Below, piece after piece: positions 38,362 to 39,756 of a stretch of DNA of 64,000 nucleotides. The stretch covers positions 1 through 64,000 of the forward strand of contig JBCDCH010000002.1 of the NCBI GenBank assembly GCA_039182125.1. The letters are read 5' to 3'. Both the position numbers and the translations under genes were made by a program. The notes below the pieces were generated by a model. The model worked only from the letters and a program-made list of their open reading frames with translations, was not told the DNA's origin and made no database searches. Numbering within the stretch: position 1 is the stretch's first letter; the number at the start of each line of letters is the position of its first letter. The DNA comes from Planctomycetota bacterium. GTDB taxonomy: Bacteria; Planctomycetota; Phycisphaerae; Tepidisphaerales; Tepidisphaeraceae.

Positions 38362-39756
38362 GTGAACAACGCAGAGGACGAACCGACTTGGCAACGGGAC
38401 GACCCGAGCGACTCGAACTCGAGTCCCGATGCGTCGTCGTCCAAGTTGCCGCGGTGGCTCGGCAAACGAATCGGCCGGTTCCGCGTGATTTCCGTTCTGG
38501 GCAAAGGCGCTTGGGGCCAGGTGTTCGAAGCGGAAGACACGCAGCTACGCCGGCGGGTCGCGCTCAAGTGCATCAATATCAACTCCAAGCAACGCGGCAT
38601 CGTTCCGTTAGAACGTTTGCTCACCGAAGCTCGCGCCGCCGCCGCGATCGAGCACCCGAACGTCACGCAGATTTATGAGGTCGGCGAGACCAAGGGCATC
38701 TTCTACATCGCGATGGAGCTGGCCGAGGGCGGCAGCACGCACGCGCTGGTCAAGACCGCCGGGCCGATGGACGTGGTGCGAGCTTGCACGCTCTGCGCCG
38801 AGGCGGCCGACGCGCTGCAACTGGGCCACGACTGCGGCATCGTCCACCGCGACATCAAGCCGGCCAACCTCCTGCTCGGACGCAACGGCCGGTGCAAGGT
38901 CGCCGACTTCGGCCTCGCCCACGGCGGCGACGTCTCCGATCCGCTTCATGCTTCCAAACAAGGCGGTACGCCGTTCTACATCGCCCCTGAAATCGTTCGT
39001 GGCTCCGAGGGTGATGCCCGCGCCGACATTTACTCTCTTGCCGCGACGCTCGTGTACCTGCTGACCGGTCGTCACATCGTTGAGGGGGAAACCCGCGCGG
39101 CCGTGCTCAAAGCACAAGTCGACCAGCCGCCGCTCGATGTCCGCGGCGTCCGGCCTGAGATTGATCCGGGCTTGGCCGACGTGATCGCCAAAGCGCTCTC
39201 GAAAGACCCTGGCACGCGATTCCAAACGGCCGGCGAGTTTGCCACGGCTTTGCGTGTCTACACGGTCCCCGTCAACAAAGCTGGCACGGCGATCGGCGGT
39301 GTGGATTGGAAGAAGGTCGGTCCGATCGCGGTCGGCATCGGAGCGTTGGTCGTCCTGCTGCTTGTGATTCTTCCGTTCATCGGCGGCGATGGCGAAGCCA
39401 CCGAAGACACCAACGCAAGGAGCAGCGACAGCGCAGCCGATCGCACGCCGACCAACGACGCCGTAGCTCAAACCACCCGGCACACGTTCACGCTCGACGT
39501 GAGCGCCTGGGCGAACAAGCCCGACACCGTGCATGTCGCCGGGGATTTCAACGGCTGGGATGAGTCGGCAACGCCGTTGACGGACCCGAACGGCGACGAC
39601 ACCTGGTCGGTCGTCGTACCCCTTGAGCCGGGCATGCACATGTACAAGTTTGTCGTCAACGGCGATCGCTGGATCAATGACCCGGACGCCGACCCCAGCC
39701 TCGACGCCGGCGACGGTCACGGCGGCATCAACAACGGCGTGCTGATCGGCCCGTAG
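38362..39756 (+). CDS. Receptor-like serine/threonine kinase with external CBM48 domain
   Basis: A 464-residue protein. The cytoplasmic kinase domain (about 40-300) has the glycine loop LGKGAWGQVFEAED, Lys69 in VALKC, the catalytic loop VHRDIKPANLLL with Asp164, the DFG Asp182 and the GTPFYIAPE activation segment. A single transmembrane helix (about 319-341) separates it from a linker and a C-terminal CBM48 / AMPK beta glycogen-binding-type domain (376-460), with VHVAGDFNGWD, HMYKFVVNGDRW and DPDADP. The topology puts the carbohydrate-binding part outside the cytoplasm. The GTG is preferred because of the Shine-Dalgarno upstream. ATG at 38320 would add 14 residues. Confidence 0.9.
   Translation: MNNAEDEPTWQRDDPSDSNSSPDASSSKLPRWLGKRIGRFRVISVLGKGAWGQVFEAEDTQLRRRVALKCININSKQRGIVPLERLLTEARAAAAIEHPNVTQIYEVGETKGIFYIAMELAEGGSTHALVKTAGPMDVVRACTLCAEAADALQLGHDCGIVHRDIKPANLLLGRNGRCKVADFGLAHGGDVSDPLHASKQGGTPFYIAPEIVRGSEGDARADIYSLAATLVYLLTGRHIVEGETRAAVLKAQVDQPPLDVRGVRPEIDPGLADVIAKALSKDPGTRFQTAGEFATALRVYTVPVNKAGTAIGGVDWKKVGPIAVGIGALVVLLLVILPFIGGDGEATEDTNARSSDSAADRTPTNDAVAQTTRHTFTLDVSAWANKPDTVHVAGDFNGWDESATPLTDPNGDDTWSVVVPLEPGMHMYKFVVNGDRWINDPDADPSLDAGDGHGGINNGVLIGP

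Follow-up and report, generated by a model that had tools for sequence, protein, structure and literature searches.

PASTA-type kinases (PknB, PrkC, Stk1) combine a cytoplasmic Hanks-type kinase, one helix and an extracytoplasmic C-terminal domain that binds a carbohydrate-containing polymer, and they dimerise on binding peptidoglycan (PMC6213207). The Ser/Thr kinases (STKs) of Planctomycetota are, according to PMC11032199 (2024), mostly single-pass proteins with varied periplasmic accessory domains, with 105 accessory domain groups in 307 architectures and half of the groups found in one protein only; CBM, AMPK and glycogen are absent from the main text of that paper, its supplementary lists lying outside this check. 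Control of a kinase by a domain of the CBM48 fold is described for AMPK, where it acts by inhibition (PMC2642990). A precedent for substrate sensing through a membrane helix comes from Clostridium thermocellum, whose RsgI anti-sigma factors respond to different substrates and pass the signal through such a helix (PMC12203970). The output of RsgI is proteolysis of the anti-sigma factor and not phosphorylation. Several RsgI proteins carry outer CBMs.

The gene described here lies in the window, which is the whole stretch of 64,000 nucleotides of planctomycete DNA that was analysed, and belongs to a draft genome of 131 contigs. Its features are as follows.

38351-38357, plus strand: Shine-Dalgarno-like AGAGGAG, read from the sequence, just 5' of the GTG start
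38362-39756, plus strand: whole gene, kinase, membrane helix and CBM48, 464 aa
38482-39225, plus strand: Ser/Thr kinase domain, residues 41-288, from its profile match and complete motifs
39325-39381, plus strand: single transmembrane helix, residues 322-340 (about), from hydropathy and charges
39382-39471, plus strand: acidic linker rich in Ser/Thr/Asn/Ala, residues 341-370, from the sequence
39472-39753, plus strand: CBM48 / AMPK1_CBM-type domain, putatively glucan-binding and probably extracytoplasmic, residues 371-464, from profiles, tree and signature

On translation of the window the gene is a single stop-free reading frame of 464 residues, and the GTG at 38362 is favoured as its start over an in-frame GTG at 38320 because of the Shine-Dalgarno-like sequence. 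Like the known STKs of Planctomycetota (PMC11032199) the protein appears to be single-pass, with the kinase inside and an outer domain of a kind that varies between relatives, and it differs from the PASTA-type kinases in what lies outside, PASTA in theirs and CBM48 in this one. Planctomycete kinases with varied periplasmic domains are already known from that study, and what would be new here is CBM48 as the outer domain. No description of a bacterial kinase-CBM48 receptor was recognised in the open-licence literature, as judged by titles and the beginnings of abstracts.

The protein is an intact-looking Hanks-type Ser/Thr kinase with predicted activity. Pkinase (PF00069) matches residues 41-288 at E 3e-44 (151.9 bits against a cut-off of 31.7) and the catalytic motifs are all present, with the glycine loop from G47, VALK at 66-69, HRDIKPAN from 162, DFG from 182 and APE, so that the complete kinase of the original prediction is borne out, as is its one membrane helix, a hydrophobic segment at 322-340 (mean hydropathy 3.04) that is not followed by a second. 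The flanks of this helix hold two positive and one negative charge on the N side and one positive and four negative on the C side, and this pattern, together with the topology of the family, suggests that the kinase is cytoplasmic and supports the further claim that the CBM48-type tail lies on the outer side. PASTA domains were sought in the protein with Pfam and gave no match at E <= 1, and the NCBIfam PASTA-kinase model matches the kinase part only, at 230 of 450 bits and far below its cut-off.

Two Pfam families match the tail, AMPK1_CBM (PF16561) at 382-460 (E 1.9e-10; 41.2 bits, above the cut-off of 26.8) and CBM_48 (PF02922) at 380-436 (E 4.5e-8, 33.7 bits against 22.4), and scores of this size exclude chance for both the predicted kinase and the predicted CBM48. 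The tail sequence by itself finds solved AMPK beta CBMs at E 1.7e-6, and with a profile made from it and ten GH13 relatives the AMPK beta CBMs come up at E 2.2e-12, followed by a GH13 pullulanase (E 8.8e-12). AlphaFold, run on the tail as a single sequence, gives a model of low confidence (pLDDT 51.6); its best Foldseek matches are CBM48-bearing proteins, with none at E <= 0.001, and the best in the PDB is 2f15, the AMPK beta2 glycogen-binding domain (E 0.04, probability 0.96). The CBM48 assignment is drawn from the profiles, with which the model is not in contradiction.

The same fold by profile does not make this a domain of the AMPK kind, as had been claimed originally. AMPK beta is a separate cytoplasmic subunit with an alpha/gamma-binding C-terminus, whereas the domain in the window is fused to its own kinase, probably lies outside and ends the protein, and it is nearer to the CBM48 of GH13 amylases. 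Identity of the tail is 44-54% to most full-length GH13 CBM48 matches and 34-35% to AMPK beta over 62-63 residues; to ParA-linked CBM48 it is 33-54%, mostly over shorter stretches. In the genome itself three proteins carry PF16561: this kinase, a ParA-like protein and a GH13 enzyme. The GH13 enzyme (L005/L186) has a signal-peptide-like start directly followed by an N-terminal AMPK1_CBM, which is 46.7% identical to the tail over 90 residues; exported amylases of this type are the nearest relatives of the tail, and differ in being catalytic enzymes with no kinase.

In AMPK beta1 the residues W100, K126, W133, L146 and T148 contact sugar and mutating them cuts glycogen binding (PMC2642990 and PMC6274970). 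At the AMPK contact positions the tail has W399, K429 and W437, so that the two Trp and the Lys (W100, K126 and W133) are kept, followed by H453 and G455 in place of L146 and T148. The pairing of these last two lies beyond the end of the AMPK match and is presumptive, as is that of N457 with AMPK N150. Both replacements are the commonest GH13 letters: among 57 GH13 rows the equivalents of W399, K429 and N457 are W, K and N in all 57, W437 has its Trp kept in 54 and G455 its Gly in 55, and position 453 most often holds H (26 rows), whilst the 54 ParA-fused rows all carry R at 429 and 45 of them carry E at 455, the rows having been classed as GH13 or ParA by short motifs in a script that left 45 rows in neither class. 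The tail has the GH13 letter at every signature position (W399, K429, W437, H453, G455, N457). In a domain tree of 98 rows, built on few columns, it falls in the GH13-containing half and apart from the ParA rows, with modest support for the deep fork (99/71) and 90/85 at the fork to which the tail belongs; this half also includes the long-branched AMPK rows, and the tree is supporting evidence only for a GH13 kinship of the tail. By identity, residue signature and domain tree the putative CBM48 is of the exported GH13 amylase kind. An AMPK origin was rejected on the same three grounds, identity (about 34% against 44-54% for GH13), signature and tree. From the kept W399, K429, W437 and N457 we infer that the tail would bind alpha-1,4-glucan.

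Outer domains appear to be exchanged within the kinase clade. Relatives at E <= 1e-65 are present in four of the 26 genomes sampled from the family, the window genome included (an order-level sample gave the same 26), at E <= 1e-60 in 23 of 397 genomes of the class, with 24 rows in total, and at E <= 1e-58 in five of 392 genomes of the phylum. When 47 kinase rows are placed in a tree, these 24 group together in a single clade (100/98), and every one of them has a single helix after the kinase with 97-219 residues beyond it. What lies beyond differs: one CBM48, three OB-like domains (a label given by eye, the best Pfam evidence being E 0.002 and below cut-off), one DUF1349-like and three Ada-like cysteine domains (the resemblances to DUF1349 and to the Ada zinc site both below the Pfam cut-off), one unassigned and 15 of a type with the motif FSW-G-K, Pfam having been run on eight of the 23 other tails. 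The kinase and a paralogue in its own genome (L025), 51% identical and with an unrelated outer domain, are sisters (98/97), and the subclade of six rows that contains them (98/90) is mixed in its outer domains, the window row being flagged for a longish branch in this tree. Duplication with exchange of the outer domain would be the economical reading of this pair, and the protein looks like a CBM48 swapped onto a modular receptor kinase. The clade shows exchange of outer domains on one conserved kinase.

The 15 FSW-G-K kinases (L062-L067 except L066, L069-L072, L074-L078, L080) share a common outer domain, FSWVGK...RFVAS...FY...LIR.EDFVGY, which had no Pfam match in the one member tested and looks like the Ada-like site of L068, L073 and L079 without its cysteines.

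It is on balance probable that the protein is a single-pass receptor Ser/Thr kinase in which a CBM48 of the exported GH13 amylase type has taken the place of an earlier outer domain, and that it senses alpha-glucan. Carbohydrate sensing, for which we infer both the binding and the signalling, is the leading and a putative reading. The charge pattern and family topology would place the kinase in the cytoplasm and the CBM48 in the periplasm, where the kept contacts suggest that it may bind alpha-1,4-glucan (starch, glycogen or maltodextrin) set free or retained close to the cell. By analogy with the PASTA kinases a multivalent glucan might then cluster the kinases, leading to trans-autophosphorylation and phosphorylation of cytoplasmic targets, or the sign of this step may be inhibition, as in AMPK. 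In this way the kinase would signal the presence of the polymer on which the cell's exported amylase acts. A more specific form, that this is a starch or glycogen receptor kinase in which a chassis that accepts different outer domains has received the binding domain of an exported amylase, letting the cell read the same polymer that its amylase attacks, is tentative, with the odds somewhat against it. The GH13 amylase is on contig 28 and not beside the kinase gene, and there is no operon link to glucan metabolism because the neighbours that were checked, a nadB-like oxidase (named from sequence), an unassigned small protein, the NADH dehydrogenase 30 kDa subunit, a GAF-SpoIIE phosphatase and an FHA-GAF-cyclase, include no glucan gene. 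The last two lie some 1.1 kb past the end of the kinase gene (phosphatase at 40884-42131 and FHA-GAF-nucleotide cyclase at 42128-43690, both on the minus strand) and are possible candidates for signalling partners of the kinase.

The CBM48 might instead bind glucan as an anchor or adhesin, holding the kinase near a polysaccharide, a cell-wall glucan or the exported amylase whilst the kinase answers some other cue. CBM48 is an accessory domain in GH13 enzymes, and the loci examined show its fold on many unrelated proteins; an adhesion role of the tail is possible. Here, however, the domain sits at the receptor position, where the 23 relatives carry outer domains of different kinds, and we consider this explanation unlikely. 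Some CBM48/E-set domains in enzymes are structural, and it could be supposed that the tail is a protein-protein or dimerisation module that binds no sugar in vivo, as might fit with AMPK L146 and T148 not being kept. This too is improbable, as W399, K429, W437 and N457 are kept, including the Trp/Trp/Lys the loss of which cuts glycogen binding by AMPK (PMC2642990, PMC6274970). A cytoplasmic tail, acting as a sensor of intracellular glycogen in the manner of AMPK or of the CBM48 proteins of the phylum that are linked to ParA or GGDEF, would agree with the fusion of related CBM48 domains to cytoplasmic ParA, GGDEF and receiver domains, yet it is very improbable given the strong helix between kinase and tail with its acidic C side, the want of a second helix, and the exported-GH13 rather than ParA signature of the tail. 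That kinase and CBM48 were falsely joined in assembly is scarcely credible even for a fusion seen in one genome only, itself in many contigs, as the frame is continuous with a proper linker, G+C is even across the gene (0.61-0.68) and an accidental join would seldom keep the frame and fall exactly between two domains.

The kinase-CBM48 architecture is, among the loci examined, a one-genome case. The original prediction had suggested looking for the same architecture in other planctomycetes, and it was not found among the loci examined. In all loci scanned there were 178 ORFs with CBM48 and 58 with a kinase, the two together only in the window gene itself (four entries), although a second kinase-CBM48 could have been missed among longer frames, or very short ones, that had no locus of their own, and among matches beyond those listed in the 298-genome search described below; the kinase model was built from the 24-member clade and also picked up more distant kinases among the 58. 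An earlier, smaller scan had given 106 CBM48 ORFs and 51 kinase ORFs, the entries with both again being the window gene (three), and in distinct sequences one CBM48 of 162 in the loci examined is joined to a kinase, that of the window protein. The loci came from two CBM48 searches, one with a match in 191 of 298 genomes, from which 30 loci and 40 regions with frames of about 390-800 aa were examined among the matches listed, and a second with a match in 61 of 392 genomes, from which its loci and 38 regions were examined, a few of them from the 298-genome search. Searched against genome contigs, the full-length protein found three kinase loci, all without CBM48, and a search of viral contigs gave 53 pattern matches, none of them confirmed. 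As the fusion is in one genome only among the loci examined, conservation of kinase-CBM48 cannot be shown.

For most bacterial Ser/Thr kinases the stimulus is not known. An outer CBM48 offers candidate ligands that are predictable and cheap (maltodextrins, beta-cyclodextrin), and because of this, and of the paralogue in the same genome with another outer domain, ligand-controlled transmembrane signalling by the kinase is directly testable. Judging from its sequence, the putative receptor may enable the cell to detect extracytoplasmic sugar polymers.

The partners of CBM48 in other loci include ParA, GGDEF, receiver and GH13, the same fold being found on many unrelated proteins. A ParA/MinD-like ATPase with a C-terminal CBM48 (L004, G000 contig 124; AAA_31 E 7e-50, AMPK1_CBM E 2.7e-17) has counterparts at many other loci (e.g. 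L035-L047, L049-L052, L111-L113) and is widespread in the class; within the family a ParA-motif CBM48 protein is found in 18 of 26 genomes, together with two fragments. These proteins have a signature of their own, Arg for Lys at the sugar-contact site, and a conserved glucan-linked ParA would deserve separate study. Five genomes, all from a single family within the phylum, encode a GGDEF diguanylate cyclase with a C-terminal CBM48 (L184, L198, L199, L200, L206; in L184 GGDEF E 8e-48 and AMPK1_CBM E 2.4e-10), which suggests that c-di-GMP output is tied to intracellular glycogen. A response-regulator receiver domain is fused to CBM48 in L222 (G734) and, by eye, CBM48 stands beside an ArsR-like helix-turn-helix in L195 and after a subtilisin-like protease in L208.
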